From: Dechloromonas aromatica (nom. nud.)
GTDB lineage: Bacteria; Pseudomonadota; Gammaproteobacteria; Burkholderiales; Rhodocyclaceae
Reading direction: 5' to 3'
DNA length: 54,095 nucleotides
Assembly (NCBI GenBank): GCA_017848965.1
Contig: JAFIHA010000006.1
Span: forward strand, 1-54,095
Shown piece by piece: positions 18,564 to 25,247 of the stretch (its first letter is position 1; the number at the start of each line of letters is the position of its first letter). A model generated the notes under the pieces. It was given only the letters and a program-made list of their open reading frames with translations. It made no database searches and was not told the origin of the DNA. A program made the translations under genes and the position numbers.

Positions 18564-18664
18564 TCGGAAAGCCACAATTTCCCGATATTCGCCTAGCCAC
18601 CATACTCGCGGCCCATCGCTCGGGGATGGGTTCCCGACATGTCCATTTTGATCGGGGGAATGCA

Positions 18665-20008
18665 GTGAAGAAGATTTTTCAGAGCCTCTACGTCCAGGTG
18701 CTGATCGCCATCACGATCGGCGTCCTGCTCGGGCACTTCTATCCGGAAACCGGCGCGGCGATGAAGCCGCTGGGTGACGGTTTCATCAAGCTGATCAAGA
18801 TGATCATCGCGCCGATCATCTTCTGCACCATCGTCGTCGGCATCGCCGGCATGGAAGACATGAAGAAGGTCGGCAAGACCGGCGGCCTGGCCGTGCTCTA
18901 TTTCGAGGTGGTCAGCTCGATCGCCCTCGTCATCGGCCTCATCGTCGTCAATGTCTGGGCTCCCGGCGTCGGCATGAACGTCGATCCGGCCTCGCTCGAC
19001 ACCTCGGCCATCGACAAGTACGCGGCGCCCGGCCAGATGCAGACGACCACGCAATTCCTGCTGAACATCATCCCGACCAGCGTCGTCGATGCCTTTGCCA
19101 AGGGCGACATGCTGCAGGTGCTGTTCTTCTCGGTCCTCTTCGGTTACGCGCTGCACGCCTTCGGCGAGCGCGGCAAGCCAGTGTTCGATTTCATCGAGCG
19201 CCTGTCGCACGTCTTCTTCCGCATCGTCGGCGTCATCATGAAGGTCGCCCCGGTCGGCGCTTTCGGCGCCATGGCCTACACCATCGGCAAGCATGGCGTC
19301 GGCAGCCTGGCCCAACTGGCCAGCCTGATGGGCGCCTTCTACCTGACCTGCGTGCTGTTCGTCTTCGGCGTCCTCGGCACCATCGCCATGGGTCACGGCT
19401 TCTCGGTCTGGAAACTGATCAAGTACATCAAGGAGGAGCTGTTCCTGGTCCTCGGCACCTCGTCGTCGGAATCGGCGCTGCCGCGCCTGATGGCGAAGAT
19501 GGAAAACGCCGGCGCCCAGAAGTCGGTGGTCGGCCTGGTCGTCCCCACCGGTTACTCGTTCAACCTTGACGGCACCTCGATCTACCTGACGATGGCGGCG
19601 GTCTTCATCGCCCAGGCGACCAACACGCCGCTCGACCTGTCGCACCAGATCACCCTGCTGCTGATCCTGCTGCTCACCTCGAAGGGCGCCGCCGGCGTCA
19701 CCGGCAGCGGCTTCATCGTGCTCGCGGCAACGCTGTCCGCCGTCGGCACCGTGCCGGTCGCCGGCCTGGCGCTGATCCTCGGCATCGACCGCTTCATGTC
19801 GGAAGCCCGCGCGCTGACCAACTTCGTCGGCAACAGCGTCGCCACGCTGGTTGTCGCCAAGTGGTGCGGTGCCCTCGACCAGGAGCGCTTGCGCGCCGTC
19901 CTCAACAACGAGACGGTCGACGAGGCCGACCATCCCGAACTGGTCCTCGACGACGCGCCGGCGCCGGACATCGCGCACACGCCGCAGCCAGCCACCGCCC
20001 ACCACTGA
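18665..20008 (+). CDS. dctA: C4-dicarboxylate transporter DctA
   Basis: A 447-residue sodium/proton symporter of the DAACS family, importing succinate, fumarate and malate across the inner membrane. The start chosen is GTG 18665 ([20 protein letters not shown]), with GGGGGA six nt upstream, because DctA proteins begin KKxxxxSLYxQV. Conserved features are [28 protein letters not shown] (serine-rich reentrant loop), [20 protein letters not shown] and the [11 protein letters not shown] loop. It ends at a strong terminator. An 18-bp palindrome in front suggests specific transcriptional control. Confidence 0.95.
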
Positions 20009-20045: not shown

Positions 20046-20074
20046 GCCCCGTCCCTGCCGACGGGGCTTTTTTT
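20046..20074 (+). terminator. Rho-independent terminator after dctA
   Basis: GCCCCGTC (20046-20053) pairs with GACGGGGC (20060-20067) around CCTGCC, followed by seven T. It lies 38 nt behind dctA and separates it from the phosphatase operon. Confidence 0.9.
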
Positions 20075-20155: not shown

Positions 20156-21835
20156 ATGTCCTCCGAGCGACCCGCCGTGACTTCCAGCAACCATTCCCTG
20201 ACGCCCGACGCCGCCGGCGACATCCAGTGGCTGGCCAGCCTCAGCCAGGATTTCGCCGCCTCGCTGTCGATGCCCGAGACGCTCGACAACGCCATCGCCC
20301 AGATCATGAGCTACCTCGAGGTCGAGGCGGCGTCGATCTTCCTGCTCGACCCCGGCGAGGCGACGCTGACCTGCCTGGCCTGCGCCGGTGCCGTCGATAT
20401 CCGCGGCCTGACCGTCGCCAACGGCCAGGGCATCGTCGGCCGCGCGGTGAGCAGCGGCCAGTCGCAACTGGTGCGCGACGTTGCCGCCGACGGCGACTTT
20501 TCCGGGGCGATCGACGCGCTGACCGGTTTCCGCACCCGTTCCATCCTGTGCGCGCCGCTGCAGGTCAAGGGGCGCAAGCTGGGGGCGCTGGAGGTGATCA
20601 ACAAGCGCGCCGCCGACGCCAACTTCGATGCCGGCGACTGCCAGTTGCTGCAGGCGCTTGCCGGCGTCGTCTCGCTCGCCATCCACAATGCGCGGATGGC
20701 CGAAGCGCTGGTCGAGCAGGAGCGGATGCGGCGCGACCTCGACCTCGCCCGCGAAATCCAGCGCGGCCTGCTGCCGCAGTCGCCGCCCGGTTTTCCGGTG
20801 TGCGCGATCAACCTGCCGGCGCTCGAGGTTTCCGGCGATTTCTACGACTTCTTTCCGCTGCCCGACGGCCGCATCGTCTGGGGCCTGGGCGACGTATCGG
20901 GCAAGGGCATGAACGCGGCGCTGCTGATGGCCAAGACGATCAGCCTGTTCCGCTGCCTGGGCAAGCGCGAGCCCGACATCGGCCGCCTGCTCGCCGACCT
21001 CAACGACGAGATTGCCGAAACCGCGCTGTTCGGCATGTTCGTCACCATGGTGCTGGGCACCTACGAGCCGGCGAGCGGCGCGGTGCGCCTGGTCAATGCC
21101 GGTCACCAGCCGCCGCTCTTGCGCCGGCGCGACGGCAGCTACGCCGAGTTCGCCGCCGCCGGGCCGCCGCTCGGCGTGCTGCCCGGCATGAGCTACGAGG
21201 CGGTGACGCTGCAACTCGATGGCGGCCGCCTGTTTGTGTTCACCGACGGCGTCACCGAGGGTTTGCGCGAGGACGGCAGCATGCTCGGCCTCGCCGGCCT
21301 GCAGGCGATCTTCGATGCCCACGCCGGCGCCGACGCCGCCGCCCAGCTGGCGGCGGTGGCCGACACCTTGCAGGCCGGCGGGCGCCGCCTGCGCGACGAC
21401 CTGACCTTGCTGGCGATTGCTCCGCCGCCCTTGCTCGACCGCGAATTTCCGGCCGAATCCGGCGTCCTCGCCGAAGTCCGGGCGACGCTGGAGGCGGCGC
21501 TGAACGGCGTCGGCCTTGCCGCCGAAGCGGTCGGCGAGCTGGTGCTGGCGGTCAACGAGGCGTGCATGAACATCATCCAGCACGGCTACGCCTATGCTGA
21601 AGGTCAGGTTTTCCGCTTGCGCCTGTGGCGCGATGGCGGCATGCTCCAGGTGCACCTGCTCGACCACGGCCGCCCGGCCAGGCTGGACGACCTCTGTCCG
21701 CGGGCACTGGACGAGCTGCGCCCGGGCGGGCTGGGGGTGCATTTCATGCGCCAGTTGAGCGACGGCATCGCCTACCTGCCGCCGCCGCCGGGCTACGATA
21801 ATCTGTTGCAGATCAGCAAACGACTCAAGGCATGA
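20156..21835 (+). CDS. GAF - SpoIIE/PP2C phosphatase - RsbW-type ATPase switch protein
   Basis: A 559-residue protein from ATG 20156, without membrane segments. Residues about 35-190 are a GAF sensor domain (NAIAQIMSYLEVEAASIFLL). A linker leads to a SpoIIE/RsbU PP2C phosphatase at about 225-420 (DLDLAREIQRGLLPQ, SGDFYDFFPLPDGR, GDVSGKGMNAALLMA, FTDGVTEG, RRLRDDLTLLAI). The C-terminus (about 430-555) is an HATPase_c_2 anti-sigma kinase-like domain with ELVLAVNEACMNIIQHGY and GGLGVHFMRQL. One polypeptide therefore carries the phosphatase and the kinase of a partner switch. It overlaps the STAS gene by 4 nt. The expected substrate is that STAS protein. Confidence 0.9.
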   Translation: MSSERPAVTSSNHSLTPDAAGDIQWLASLSQDFAASLSMPETLDNAIAQIMSYLEVEAASIFLLDPGEATLTCLACAGAVDIRGLTVANGQGIVGRAVSSGQSQLVRDVAADGDFSGAIDALTGFRTRSILCAPLQVKGRKLGALEVINKRAADANFDAGDCQLLQALAGVVSLAIHNARMAEALVEQERMRRDLDLAREIQRGLLPQSPPGFPVCAINLPALEVSGDFYDFFPLPDGRIVWGLGDVSGKGMNAALLMAKTISLFRCLGKREPDIGRLLADLNDEIAETALFGMFVTMVLGTYEPASGAVRLVNAGHQPPLLRRRDGSYAEFAAAGPPLGVLPGMSYEAVTLQLDGGRLFVFTDGVTEGLREDGSMLGLAGLQAIFDAHAGADAAAQLAAVADTLQAGGRRLRDDLTLLAIAPPPLLDREFPAESGVLAEVRATLEAALNGVGLAAEAVGELVLAVNEACMNIIQHGYAYAEGQVFRLRLWRDGGMLQVHLLDHGRPARLDDLCPRALDELRPGGLGVHFMRQLSDGIAYLPPPPGYDNLLQISKRLKA

Positions 21836-22176
21836 GGGACAGGGTGGAAATCAGTACGCGCAAGGCGGGGGAATACGACTGGCTGGGCTTGTCCGGCGAT
21901 GTGGACATGCACGCCGCGCCGCAGGTGCGCAAGGCATTGCTCGACGCGCTGCAGGGGAAGAACGGCCTGCTCGTCGATCTCGCCGGCGTCAGCTACATGG
22001 ACAGCTCGGGCGTCGCCTGCCTGGTCGAGGCCTTCCAGACGGCGCGCCGGCAGGGTAGCCGTTTCGCGCTGGTGGCGGTGGCACCGCCGGTCCTTGCGGT
22101 GTTGCGCCTGGCCCGGCTGGACAAGGTATTCACGCTCTACGCCACGGTGGACGAGGCGCTGGCCGGTGGCCGCTGA
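21832..22176 (+). CDS. STAS-domain protein (anti-anti-sigma / MlaB-like)
   Basis: A 114-residue STAS protein. The core reads LGLSGDVDMHAAPQVRKALL and LLVDLAGVSYMDSSGVACLV. DSSG holds the serine that is phosphorylated in SpoIIAA/RsbV, so partner switching is chemically possible here. STAS proteins are also the MlaB subunit that binds the MlaF ATPase in lipid transporters. Position supports both readings: it overlaps the phosphatase/kinase gene upstream (ATGA) and the MlaE-like permease downstream. It could be a switch that links phosphorylation state to lipid transport; this is inference. Confidence 0.85.
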   Translation: MRDRVEISTRKAGEYDWLGLSGDVDMHAAPQVRKALLDALQGKNGLLVDLAGVSYMDSSGVACLVEAFQTARRQGSRFALVAVAPPVLAVLRLARLDKVFTLYATVDEALAGGR

Positions 22177-22969
22177 GTTCCTGAGCCAGCGCGTCGAGGC
22201 GCTCGGCCGCCGGACGGCGGCGGCGCTGGCCGAATTCGGCTATATCGCGGCGCTCCTCGTCGAGGCCTGCTACTGGCTGTTGCTCGGCCACTGGCGGCGG
22301 CAGCCGGTGCGCCTGCCGGCGGTTTTCCGGGAGGCGGTCGGGGTCGGCGTCGCGGCGATTCCGGTGGTCGGCCTGGCGGCTTTCGCCACCGGCATGATGC
22401 TGGCGATCCAGGGCGTCTACACGCTGCGCACCTTCGGCGCCGAGGAACAGGTGGTGATCGGCGTCGCCCTCTCGGTGGCGCGCGAGTTCGGGCCGCTGAT
22501 CACCGGCATCTTCGTCGCCGGCCGCTCCGGTTCGGCGATCGCCGCGCGCATCGGCACCATGCAGATTTCGCAGGAGATCGACGCCCTGCGCGTGATCGGC
22601 ATCAACCCGGTGCGCTACCTGGTGGCGCCGATCCTCGCCGCGATGTTGCTGACGCTGCCGGCGCTGACCGTGCTTGCCGACCTGCTGGCGCTGCTCGGCG
22701 CCGCGCTCTACTGCGCCGGCGATCTCAACCTGCCGGTCGGCATCTTCTTCGAACGGACCTTCACCATCCTGCGCGTCGCCGATGTCCTCGACGGCCTGAC
22801 CAAGAGCCAGCTGTTTGCCGTCGTCGTCACCCTGATCGGCGCCAGCAACGGCTTCTCGGTCACCGCGGGCGCCGAGGGCGTCGGCCGGGCGACGACGCGC
22901 TCGGTGGTGCTGTGCTGCATCGCCATCATCCTGGTGGACATGGTGTTCACCTTCTTCACCAGCCGCTGA
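22166..22969 (+). CDS. mlaE: MlaE-family ABC transporter permease
   Basis: A 267-residue inner-membrane permease from GTG 22166, which overlaps the STAS gene end by 11 nt. MlaE signatures are FATGMMLAIQGVYTLRTFGA, REFGPLITGIFVAGRSGSAI, AARIGTMQISQEIDALRVIG and INPVRYLVAPILAAMLLTLP. About five or six hydrophobic segments are present. The family moves phospholipids or other lipids between inner membrane and periplasmic MCE proteins. Neighbours supply the ATPase, MCE protein and lipoprotein. The longer frame from 21899 overlaps the STAS gene and is a shadow. Confidence 0.9.
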   Translation: MAAEFLSQRVEALGRRTAAALAEFGYIAALLVEACYWLLLGHWRRQPVRLPAVFREAVGVGVAAIPVVGLAAFATGMMLAIQGVYTLRTFGAEEQVVIGVALSVAREFGPLITGIFVAGRSGSAIAARIGTMQISQEIDALRVIGINPVRYLVAPILAAMLLTLPALTVLADLLALLGAALYCAGDLNLPVGIFFERTFTILRVADVLDGLTKSQLFAVVVTLIGASNGFSVTAGAEGVGRATTRSVVLCCIAIILVDMVFTFFTSR

Positions 22970-22972
22970 ACG

Positions 22973-23791
22973 ATGGCCGCCACCGAATCCGCCTTCGAAT
23001 ACGCGATCGAGGTCGAGCACCTGGTCACCCACTACGGCGCGCGCAAGATCCTCGACGACATCAATTTCAGCGTCCGCCAGGGCGAGATCATGGTCATCAT
23101 GGGCGGCAGCGGTTCCGGCAAGAGCACGCTGCTGCGTCACCTGCTCGGCCTGCACCGGCCGACTTCCGGCAGCATCCGCCTGCTCGGCCACGACATCACC
23201 CAACTGAGCGCCGACCAGATGTACGACCTGCGCAAGAACATGGGCGTCGCCTTCCAGGGCGGGGCGCTGTTCAACTCGATGACGGTCGGCGAGAACGTCG
23301 AACTGCCGCTGCGCGAACACACCCGGCTCGACGACAACACGATCCGCATCATGAGCCGGATGAAGCTGGAGGTGGTCAACCTCGCCGGCTTCGAGGACCT
23401 GATGCCGGCCGAGCTGTCCGGCGGCATGATCAAGCGCGCGGCACTGGCCCGGGCGATCGTCATGGACCCGCGCCTGCTCTTCTTCGACGAGCCGTCGGCC
23501 GGCCTCGACCCGGTGGTCTCGGCGGAGCTCGACGAACTGATCCTGACCCTGCGCGACGCGATGAACATGACCATCGTCGTCGTCACCCACGAACTGGAAA
23601 GCGCCTTCAAGATCGCCGACCGCATCACCGTCCTCGATCAGGGACGTATCCTGATGTCGGATACGGCGGCGGCGGTGCGCGCTTCCGACCATCCGCGCAT
23701 CCGCGCGCTGCTCGACCGCACGCCGCGCAGCGACGCGGTGGACGCCGATGCCTACCTGGAACGACTGACCCGGGAGATTTTCCGAGCATGA
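22973..23791 (+). CDS. mlaF: MlaF-family ABC transporter ATP-binding protein
   Basis: A 272-residue ATPase starting 3 nt after the permease stop. Walker A is GGSGSGKSTLLRHL (about 44-57), the Q-loop lies in NMGVAFQGGALFNSMTV, the signature is AELSGGMIKRAALARAI and Walker B is LLFFDEPSAGLDPV, with the switch His in VVVTHELESAFKIAD. The FQGGALFNSMTV sequence is diagnostic for the MlaF/Mkl group. It powers the lipid transporter with the MlaE- and MlaD-like partners. Its stop overlaps the start of the MCE gene. Confidence 0.93.
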   Translation: MAATESAFEYAIEVEHLVTHYGARKILDDINFSVRQGEIMVIMGGSGSGKSTLLRHLLGLHRPTSGSIRLLGHDITQLSADQMYDLRKNMGVAFQGGALFNSMTVGENVELPLREHTRLDDNTIRIMSRMKLEVVNLAGFEDLMPAELSGGMIKRAALARAIVMDPRLLFFDEPSAGLDPVVSAELDELILTLRDAMNMTIVVVTHELESAFKIADRITVLDQGRILMSDTAAAVRASDHPRIRALLDRTPRSDAVDADAYLERLTREIFRA

Positions 23792-24711
23792 AACGCGACA
23801 ACGTCAATTACCTGCTGGTCGGCAGCTTCGTGCTGCTCATGGGCATCGTCCTGCTCTACGCGCTGTACCGGATCACCGGCCAGGCGGCGAACGGCGAACC
23901 TTTCGTCACCCATTTCGCCAACGTCGCCGGGATCAAGGCCGGCTCGCCGGTGACCCTCGACGGCTACGCCATCGGCAACGTGGCCAGCATCGAGCCGGTA
24001 CGGCGCGACGGCCGCAACGCCTACCGGGTGACGCTGCAGTTGCGCGAAGCGGTCGGCATCCCGGCCGACAGCCGGGCGCGCATCACGGCGCCGGGCATGC
24101 TGGCGGCGCCGCTGGTCGACATCCGCAGCGGCCAGAGCCAGGAGATGCTGGCGGCCGGCGCCGAACTGCCGGGCGAAGCCGGCGGCAGTCTCAGCGATTC
24201 GGTCGCCGGGCTGGCCGGTGATTTGCGCGCTCTGGCCAACGATGGCATCCGGCCGCTGGTCGAGCAGATTGCCGGCCGCATCGACCGCGTCGGCGGCAGC
24301 CTCGAAGAGAACCTGCCGGCGACGCTGCGCGAGCTGCGCTCGGCGATGACCCGTCTGAACGCCACGGCCGGCCGTGTCGACGACATGTTCTCGGCGCAGA
24401 ACCGCCAGCACATGGAAGGCATGCTGAAGAACGGCCACGACGCCTCGCTGCGCATCGCCCAACTGTCGCAGGAAATCCTCGGCGCCAGCCGCGAACTCGA
24501 AGGCCTGCTCAAGGATTCCCGGCTGATCGTCGCCGGCAGCGGCCAGGACCTGCAACAGTCGCTGCGCCACGCAGACGCGCTGCTCCACCAGCTCGAAGCC
24601 GCCGGCCGCAACCTCAACGAATTCAGCCGCACCATCCGCAACAATCCGGCGGCGCTGATCCAGAGCCGGCCGCCGGTCGATGCCGCCACCGCCCAGGGAG
24701 AAAAACCGTGA
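23788..24711 (+). CDS. mlaD: MlaD/MCE-domain protein
   Basis: A 307-residue protein from ATG 23788 (4-nt overlap with mlaF). One N-terminal membrane anchor (YLLVGSFVLLMGIVLLYALY) is followed by an MCE domain at about 40-115 (FANVAGIKAGSPVTLDGYAI, ITAPGMLAAPLVDIRSG). A long helical region of about 150 residues follows (LVEQIAGRIDRVGGSLEENL). It is longer than E. coli MlaD (about 183 residues) and resembles PqiB/LetB-like or organellar-type MCE proteins with coiled-coil tails. It anchors in the inner membrane and binds lipid in the periplasm. The tail may help span toward the lipoprotein encoded next. Confidence 0.9.
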   Translation: MKRDNVNYLLVGSFVLLMGIVLLYALYRITGQAANGEPFVTHFANVAGIKAGSPVTLDGYAIGNVASIEPVRRDGRNAYRVTLQLREAVGIPADSRARITAPGMLAAPLVDIRSGQSQEMLAAGAELPGEAGGSLSDSVAGLAGDLRALANDGIRPLVEQIAGRIDRVGGSLEENLPATLRELRSAMTRLNATAGRVDDMFSAQNRQHMEGMLKNGHDASLRIAQLSQEILGASRELEGLLKDSRLIVAGSGQDLQQSLRHADALLHQLEAAGRNLNEFSRTIRNNPAALIQSRPPVDAATAQGEKP

Positions 24712-25247
24712 TCCGTCTGCTGGCCATCCTCGTCCTCCTCGCCGGCCTCGCCGCCTGCGGCGGCAATGTCGCGCCGGCGCCGCAGGAGCAGTTCTACCGC
24801 CTGCAGGCGGCGCCGCTCGCCGACGCCGGTGCCGCCGGACTGGCGGTCGGTCGTTTCACTGCCGACAGCATCTACGCCGAGCGGCCGCTGGTCTACGGCG
24901 ACCCGGGCGACCCGCACACCTCTCGCCAGTACCACTACCACCTCTGGCTCTATCCGCCGGCGCAACTGGTGCGCGACCACCTGGCGCAGACGCTGGGCGC
25001 CCGCCAGGCGGATTTCGCCGAGCGGCGGATCGAGGGCCGGGTGCTGCGCTTCGACCGCGTCGGCCGGCAGGCCGTGGTCGAACTCGAACTGCGCGTTGTC
25101 CAGGGACGGGAGGCGGTTTTCGACCGGCGCTATGCGGCCGAGGAAACGGCCAGCGGCGACGGCCTGCGCGCCCACGTCGAAGCCAGCGAGCGGGCCCTCG
25201 CCACGATCTACGGCCGCTTCCTCGCCGATCTGCGCACCCGCCGCTGA
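24708..25247 (+). CDS. ABC-type transport auxiliary lipoprotein (PqiC-like)
   Basis: A 179-residue lipoprotein from GTG 24708 (overlaps the MCE gene by 4 nt). The signal peptide LLAILVLLAGLAACGG carries a lipobox with Cys at about residue 17. The mature part matches the PF03886-type fold by pattern: FYRLQAAPLADAG, GRFTADSIYAERPLVYGD, HYHLWLYPPAQLVRDHL and the C-terminal ASERALATIYGRFLADL. PqiC-type lipoproteins sit in the outer membrane and dock the periplasmic MCE tunnel. It is the last gene of the phosphatase-STAS-Mla operon. Confidence 0.85.
   Translation: MIRLLAILVLLAGLAACGGNVAPAPQEQFYRLQAAPLADAGAAGLAVGRFTADSIYAERPLVYGDPGDPHTSRQYHYHLWLYPPAQLVRDHLAQTLGARQADFAERRIEGRVLRFDRVGRQAVVELELRVVQGREAVFDRRYAAEETASGDGLRAHVEASERALATIYGRFLADLRTRR

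Follow-up and report, generated by a model that had tools for sequence, protein, structure and literature searches.

This analysis concerns a six-gene locus of Dechloromonas aromatica that lies within contig JAFIHA010000006.1 (the whole analysed stretch of 54,095 nucleotides is termed here the window) and that appears to join a serine kinase-phosphatase switch to a lipid transporter. The genes encode, in order, a GAF-PP2C-HATPase protein (P0001), a STAS domain protein (P0002), the permease MlaE, the ATPase MlaF, the MCE protein MlaD, and a PqiC-like lipoprotein (Table 1); the first two genes are termed here the module. A sequence-only reading of this DNA had named the six genes in this order and had described them as overlapping: all six lie at the positions given there and their naming is backed by Pfam, but overlap is found at four of the five junctions (4, 11, 4 and 4 bases), MlaE and MlaF being 3 bases apart. 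Related NCBIfam models were found for five of the six proteins, and no NCBIfam model matched the PqiC-like lipoprotein. The six-gene operon is confirmed as real.

P0001 retains the residues expected of both of its enzymatic domains. Its PP2C domain matches the SpoIIE Pfam model at E 3e-44, and five aspartates, which we take to be the metal-binding aspartates of the domain, are kept in most of the 68 loci described below: D228 in 66 (two gaps), D246 in 62 (one Y, one H and four gaps), and D364, D414 and D415 in 62 each (six gaps each). In the kinase domain, compared over 65 loci, E468 is kept in 60, N472 in 59, D503 and G524 in 62 each, and G525 and G527 in 61 each, and these six residues are invariant across the 26 rows of alignment A3; the E and N residues presumably form the N-box, and the glycines the glycine box. 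Among solved structures, RsbW and SpoIIAB come closest to the kinase profile. For the GAF domain, solved matches are mostly cyclic-nucleotide phosphodiesterases, plus a cyclase, and N149, K150, F157 and D161 of the GAF region are invariant in A1 (an alignment of 29 homologues); the signal that it senses may be a cyclic nucleotide.

The STAS protein has the intact DSSG serine that had been read from the sequence, namely Ser58 of an MDSSG motif; among 68 aligned rows the motif is DSSG in 65 and DSSV in one, with a gap in two. P0002 scores above the TIGR00377 cut-off, and against the MlaB family model NF033618 it scores 25.7 bits, below the cut-off of 90. Judged by these matches, P0002 would be a STAS protein of the kinase-regulated type, with its serine kept.

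How widely this arrangement occurs was first counted from the phosphatase-kinase, by scanning contigs with A1 and two patterns, both drawn from the phosphatase part. At least 595 stretches matched, at least 542 of them encoding a relative, and the best 80 were kept, which favours close kin. Twelve of the 80 are Pelagibacteraceae loci (L106-L117; loci are labelled L and genomes G) that match only the GAF-phosphatase part, at 36-38% identity; in six of these (L107, L109, L110, L111, L115 and L116) a kinase-STAS pair lies about 9 kb from the phosphatase on the other strand, with MlaE called beside neither. Within the remaining 68 loci (L038-L105), which span Alpha-, Beta- and Gammaproteobacteria and Myxococcota, kinase, STAS and MlaE are consecutive in 59, a count that uses length-filtered domains and is uncorrected for kinship. 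MlaF, MlaD and PqiC are also present in 40 of the 59; the other 19 comprise five loci with a convergent MlaF, two with MlaE and no adjoining MlaF, and 12 in which the contig has nearly ended (351 to 2,631 bases being left after STAS). Five of the 68 have kinase and STAS without MlaE within 400 bases (L072, L086, L087, L095 and L098), L092 stops at a contig edge, and two have no kinase domain (in one of these, L099, the contig ends). The outer neighbours of the operon, dctA and an oppB-like gene, recur in one of the 68, the close relative L038. Because 59 of 68 loci are linked while the outer neighbours are kept in one, the arrangement is confirmed to stand far above chance. The recurrence of phosphatase-kinase genes beside mla genes, which the sequence-only reading had proposed to survey, is thus found in several classes rather than among close relatives alone.

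To avoid the bias of fetching loci by their kinase, linkage was also counted from the ATPase, by running an MlaF-class model (A2, 25 rows) over 397 genomes of the phylum. At E 1e-97 a match occurs in eight genomes, the window's included; in the seven others the module lies beside the transporter in four, lies elsewhere in one, is represented elsewhere by distant relatives in one, and is absent from one. Three of the four (G075, G211 and G456) have phosphatase-kinase, STAS, MlaE, MlaF, MlaD and PqiC consecutively; the fourth, G245, has kinase, STAS, MlaF, MlaE and MlaD and then, about 600 bases on, a separate SpoIIE-type protein (Pfam). G440 has MlaF-E-D with no STAS nearby and a complete phosphatase-kinase-STAS set on another contig (L211). 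G159 has MlaE-F-D-PqiC with no STAS nearby, together with a phosphatase-STAS and a kinase-STAS pair, more distant in sequence, on two other contigs. A second class MlaF in G456 belongs to an MlaF-E-D set without STAS nearby (L160). Searching the same 397 genomes with A1 gave 18 matches at E 1e-60, six of them at 2.8e-174 or better and the next at 3.7e-92, and the kinase cut-off for a co-occurrence table was placed at this gap seen in the scores. Five genomes then have both kinase and MlaF, one the kinase only (G302), three MlaF only (G245, G159 and G116) and 388 neither (Fisher p 4e-9, or 1.7e-7 without the window's genome, kinship being ignored). Across the 17 genomes of one order, around G075, the MlaF class is present in 12, of which G075 alone was examined for the module.

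The MlaF proteins of the switch loci form one clade. In a tree of 64 rows (for which a long-branch warning applies to the outside rows), one branch (98/97) holds 45 linked, five convergent and three unlinked MlaF rows, and outside it fall four MlaB-type, five STAS-fused and two STAS-less alphaproteobacterial rows. A C-terminal tail of the form DADEYLxRLTG occurs in 49 of 53 class members and in none of 11 others, a pattern that was written after the tails were inspected and that therefore describes the class rather than tests it; within the tail, Y261 and L265 (numbered as in the window) do not vary across the rows of A2. Over the MlaF helical subdomain the window's protein is 45-55% identical to the four MlaB-partnered proteins, 43-51% to the five STAS-fused and 31-37% to the two STAS-less alphaproteobacterial ones, these being small groups, and over core segments the same comparison gives 37-63%. 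As a pointer to a STAS-MlaF interface these identities are suggestive only.

The switch accompanies three transporter layouts: MlaE-F-D-PqiC as in the window, MlaE-D-A-C with a convergent MlaF, and MlaF-E-D; thus it goes both with transporters like the Mpc system considered below and with Mla-like ones. The convergent layout was seen in gammaproteobacterial loci (L046, L051, L057, L083 and L101), where kinase, STAS, MlaE and a short MlaD are accompanied by an MlaF gene in convergent orientation; L046 and L083, which were read gene by gene, have MlaA- and MlaC-type genes after MlaD (checked by Pfam in L046). MlaF-E-D adjoins the module in G245 and lies apart from it in other genomes. At L076 and L094 (L094:12244-13038) the module is followed by MlaE, with no MlaF or MlaD called nearby, and in L094 a DUF481 gene comes after MlaE.

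The window's own genome (G000, 68 contigs) contains one other MlaE, on contig C21, where a locus (L140) encodes MlaF, MlaE, MlaD and a 92-residue STAS protein (Pfam) and resembles a regular mla operon that includes an MlaB; the window thus encodes a second transporter system, distinct from this one. P0002 and the STAS protein of that locus are 29% identical over 56 residues. The window's operon has one STAS gene, and no separate MlaB was found for the same complex, the genome's other MlaB near an MlaE sitting in the separate mla operon. That MlaB-like protein (L140:3214-3489) has DSSA where P0002 has DSSG, and it too might be phosphorylated.

Modules that lie apart from the transporter bear on the same question. 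In L086, L087, L095 and L098, phosphatase, kinase and STAS lie tail to tail with two further genes, one for an FHA protein and one for another PP2C phosphatase (identified through Pfam in L087, and by eye in L086, L095, L098 and L211), which may constitute a second phospho-signalling unit. When the genomes of unlinked modules were searched for MlaE and STAS_2, four of five were found to have an MlaF-E-D operon in which no STAS gene was noticed (Table 1; in G062 a contig edge cuts MlaD). The MlaF of three of these four operons falls in the class clade; that of G061 (L126, contig C125) is interrupted by an in-frame stop, reflecting either assembly error or decay, and was left out of the tree. 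The only STAS_2 match in G062 is the module's; G064 and G061 each have the module's and one more, in frames of 548 and 716 residues, respectively, and in G063 there are, in addition, an ordinary MlaB and an MlaE fused to a STAS domain. This is the pattern to be expected if the module's STAS protein were to serve the transporter from a distance. A gene for a Sel1-repeat protein precedes the STAS-less MlaF-E-D operons in L136 (7670-11722; Pfam) and in L137, L142 and L156 (by eye). The simpler rule that each MlaE operon has exactly one STAS was rejected, since the alphaproteobacterial MlaE-MlaF operons L138 and L139 show none; there the MlaE-MlaF pair adjoins alanine-racemase-like and DnaB-like genes (by eye), and L138 has two MlaD genes on the opposite strand.

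From these observations we conclude that the operon probably encodes an MCE lipid ABC transporter together with a partner switch: the STAS protein would take the place of MlaB and likely keep MlaF active only while Ser58 is unphosphorylated. By analogy, P0002 is cast as the partner that holds MlaF because MlaB of Escherichia coli binds and stabilises MlaF; passages of the papers cited report that MlaB is needed for MlaF stability (PMC7367683, PMC5016091), that its T52 lies near the middle of a helical face at the MlaF interface and that T52E weakens MlaF binding (PMC7367683). Going by what is known of the families, the HATPase domain would phosphorylate Ser58, and the PP2C domain, set by the GAF domain, would take the phosphate off. 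Unphosphorylated STAS protein would then bind the MlaF helical subdomain and the MlaF tail of the neighbouring subunit, in the manner of E. coli MlaB, allowing the transporter to assemble and to hydrolyse ATP, and a phosphate at Ser58--the centre of a helical face that kinase and MlaF would both use--would block this binding; loss of STAS from MlaF would in turn stop lipid transport without a transcriptional step. A broader proposal, toward which we lean with somewhat less assurance, is that a widespread class of MCE transporters is gated post-translationally, with a serine kinase-phosphatase dedicated to the task and an MlaB-like STAS protein as its substrate; this would be the first partner switch to have an ABC transporter as its output, and through it GAF-sensed signals would set inter-membrane lipid traffic without new protein synthesis. 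Much the same gating had been suggested by the sequence-only reading, of which the genomic part stands (linkage across classes, serine and catalytic residues kept, a lone STAS gene in the operon); the phosphorylation, the STAS-MlaF binding and its polarity would follow by homology and by analogy with E. coli.

Several observations weigh against this interpretation, beginning with the kinship that remains uncorrected in the counts over L038-L105. The Pelagibacteraceae loci have a relative of the phosphatase without the linkage; L104 has no STAS downstream, L103 has the phosphatase without a kinase, and L076 and L094 (both Lysobacterales) have MlaE but no MlaF beside the module. In the phylum sample, the module of G159 is split and distant, G116 has an MlaF of the class alone, with no close module, and G302 has the module followed by an unrelated gene, with no MlaF of the class. 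Magnetospirillum molischianum (L072) fits poorly, in that its module lacks an MlaE beside it and, of the two MlaE operons in its genome, one is of the STAS-fused kind and the other of the STAS-less alphaproteobacterial kind. Within the genus the occurrence is patchy: P0001 is matched at E 1e-60 in two of 36 genomes, the window's included (and in two of all 60 genomes searched), the second being G008, with a match on the contig that also carries L038, the Azonexus hydrophilus locus whose phosphatase and kinase occupy separate frames. Co-variation adds no support: when the STAS, MlaF and kinase alignments were paired over 50 loci (effectively 41 at 80% identity, with 30 shuffles), top coupling scores, each with the largest shuffled score in brackets, were 13.5 (11.5) for STAS-MlaF, 13.2 (8.1) for STAS-kinase and 12.7 (11.7) for kinase-MlaF, so that STAS-MlaF gives no signal above the control pair. 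Coupling was therefore rejected as a sign of contact: kinase and MlaF, which are not expected to bind, score about equally, and several columns rank at the top for every one of the three pairs, as shared descent would produce. Finally, E. coli MlaB T52A is inactive though bound, which fits poorly with simple control by phosphorylation (PMC7367683, PMC5016091) and is, by analogy, a caution that the site may have roles of another kind.

Other accounts of the locus must be set against these data. The STAS protein could be a fixed structural substitute for MlaB, with the kinase-phosphatase acting on another target and co-transcription reflecting a shared regulon; E. coli MlaB, after all, stabilises MlaF with no phosphorylation shown in the passages cited (PMC7367683, PMC5016091), and the window's genome holds other switch parts, namely a further clear HATPase_c_2 gene (contig C54) and 10 matches to PF01740. 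We consider this unlikely, inasmuch as a kept serine and a kinase-type STAS fold would be superfluous in a merely structural subunit and, except in G159, phosphatase, kinase and STAS stay joined when they lie apart from the transporter (L086, L087, L095, L098 and L211). The bound yet inactive T52A protein lends itself to a reversed polarity as well, since a hydroxyl or a phosphate may be needed there (PMC5016091): phosphorylated STAS would activate or stabilise the transporter, or else a STAS-kinase complex would dock on MlaF. That T52E weakens MlaF binding (PMC7367683), and that in the SiaABCD system of Pseudomonas aeruginosa it is the unphosphorylated partner that activates, phosphorylation preventing binding (PMC8457831), make such a polarity distinctly unlikely.

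A classical transcriptional switch, in which the STAS protein or the kinase would bind a sigma or anti-sigma factor and the transporter genes would be regulated passengers, would account for the resemblance of the STAS, kinase and phosphatase domains to Rsb/Spo proteins and for the existence of unlinked modules and of G302. It is nonetheless very improbable, given that Pfam finds no sigma-factor gene among the six, that the MlaF class and the module co-occur across the phylum sample, and that unlinked modules mostly coincide with STAS-less MlaFED operons. Gating of the transporter itself through the STAS protein therefore remains the account that we prefer.

The coordinates of the operon and of the features around it are collected in Table 1. 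The oppB-like gene, for a binding-protein-dependent permease, lies 34 bases downstream of the operon.

Table 1. Positions in the window of the operon, its domains and motifs and its upstream flank, with the STAS-less operons of other genomes in the last line
Feature	Position	Strand	Basis and remarks
GAF-PP2C(SpoIIE)-HATPase_c_2 protein P0001, 559 aa	20156..21835	+	Pfam, NCBIfam; predicted sensor phosphatase fused to RsbW/SpoIIAB-like kinase
GAF domain of P0001, residues 41-176	20276..20683	+	Pfam; predicted signal input
SpoIIE/PP2C phosphatase domain of P0001, residues 236-421	20861..21418	+	Pfam; D228, D246, D364, D414, D415
HATPase_c_2 kinase domain of P0001, residues 431-541	21446..21778	+	Pfam; E468, N472, D503, G524/G525/G527
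STAS protein P0002, 114 aa	21832..22176	+	Pfam, NCBIfam; predicted switch protein in MlaB's place
Ser58 codon (MDSSG) of P0002	22003..22005	+	predicted phospho-site
MlaE permease P0003, 267 aa	22166..22969	+	Pfam, NCBIfam; GTG start, no fused STAS domain
MlaF ATPase P0004, 272 aa	22973..23791	+	Pfam, NCBIfam
MlaF tail DADAYLERLTR, residues 256-266 (Y261, L265)	23738..23770	+	typical of the MlaF class
MlaD P0005, 307 aa	23788..24711	+	Pfam, NCBIfam; MCE domain and long C-terminal part
PqiC-like lipoprotein P0006 (ABC_trans_aux)	24708..25247	+	Pfam; lipobox read by eye
Terminator-like hairpin and T run between dctA and operon	20046..20067	+	
dctA, upstream of operon	18626-20008		Pfam SDF
STAS-less MlaF-E-D operons	G061 L126/L141; G062 L142; G063 L137; G064 L136		

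Whether phosphorylation regulates MlaB, and through what agent, is a question that two eLife papers did not settle (PMC5016091, PMC7367683), and the operon offers a candidate kinase, phosphatase and substrate. If the proposal is correct, an ABC transporter joins the known outputs of partner switches, the flow of lipid between membranes would be under fast post-translational control, and the MlaF proteins with a recognisable tail would form a testable clade.

Among known transporters, E. coli MlaFEDB resembles the system proposed here in that it pairs an MCE ABC transporter with a small STAS protein of its own gene, whose T52, the counterpart of the phospho-site, lies at the MlaF interface, and in its MlaF tail, whose Tyr261 and Leu265 are matched by Y261 and L265 in spacing only, alignments to the PDB chains ending before the tail; it differs in that MlaB is a shortened STAS protein with, in the passages cited, no known kinase or phosphatase (PMC7367683, PMC5016091, PMC7790496). 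Canonical Mla systems differ further, since Pfam finds neither MlaC nor MlaA among the six genes of the window's operon and its MlaD is long; the convergent relative L046 has both MlaC and MlaA. The Mla-Pqi chimeric (Mpc) transporter MpcEFDA, described in 2025 and reported to be conserved in Hyphomicrobiales, shares with the window an MlaE-type permease, an MlaF-type ATPase, a long MlaD, a PqiC-like lipoprotein and a STAS domain (PMC12436622). In Mpc, however, the permease carries the STAS domain as an N-terminal fusion, whereas the window's MlaE consists of the MlaE domain only and its STAS protein is separate, with a kinase-phosphatase gene in front; no kinase or phosphatase is named as a part of Mpc in the passages cited (PMC12436622). 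Likewise, ATPases of the window's class fall outside the five STAS-fused systems in the tree, among whose rows Mpc itself is not included. No paper naming SpoIIE and MlaE together was found in the open-licence literature (preprints being outside its scope), and none of the open-licence papers listed reports, by title or abstract start, partner-switch or phosphorylation control of an Mla or MCE transporter. The sequence-only reading's statement that no system with this control had been described agrees with this, but it needs qualifying: that MlaB may be phosphorylated had already been put forward as a hypothesis, in 2016 and again in 2020, without a known kinase (PMC5016091, PMC7367683), and an MlaE-F-D-PqiC transporter is known as Mpc (PMC12436622).

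The switch itself resembles the Rsb/Spo systems (RsbU-RsbW-RsbV and SpoIIE-SpoIIAB-SpoIIAA) and Rv1364c, which likewise combine a PP2C phosphatase and a HATPase kinase with a STAS protein that carries a phospho-serine; for Rv1364c, the alignment with the solved part (3ke6) spans both phosphatase and kinase. To our knowledge, the outputs of Rsb/Spo partner switches are sigma factors, whereas the genes beside the window's switch encode an ABC transporter. SiaABCD offers a parallel: a kinase and a phosphatase act there on a small switch protein whose binding controls an enzyme, not a sigma factor, and is stopped by phosphorylation, which shows that a switch of this type can act directly on an enzyme; SiaABCD differs in that the target is a diguanylate cyclase and the phosphorylated residue is T68 of SiaC (PMC8457831). 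The novelty of the window's system would thus lie not in its parts, which are known, but in a new target for the partner switch.

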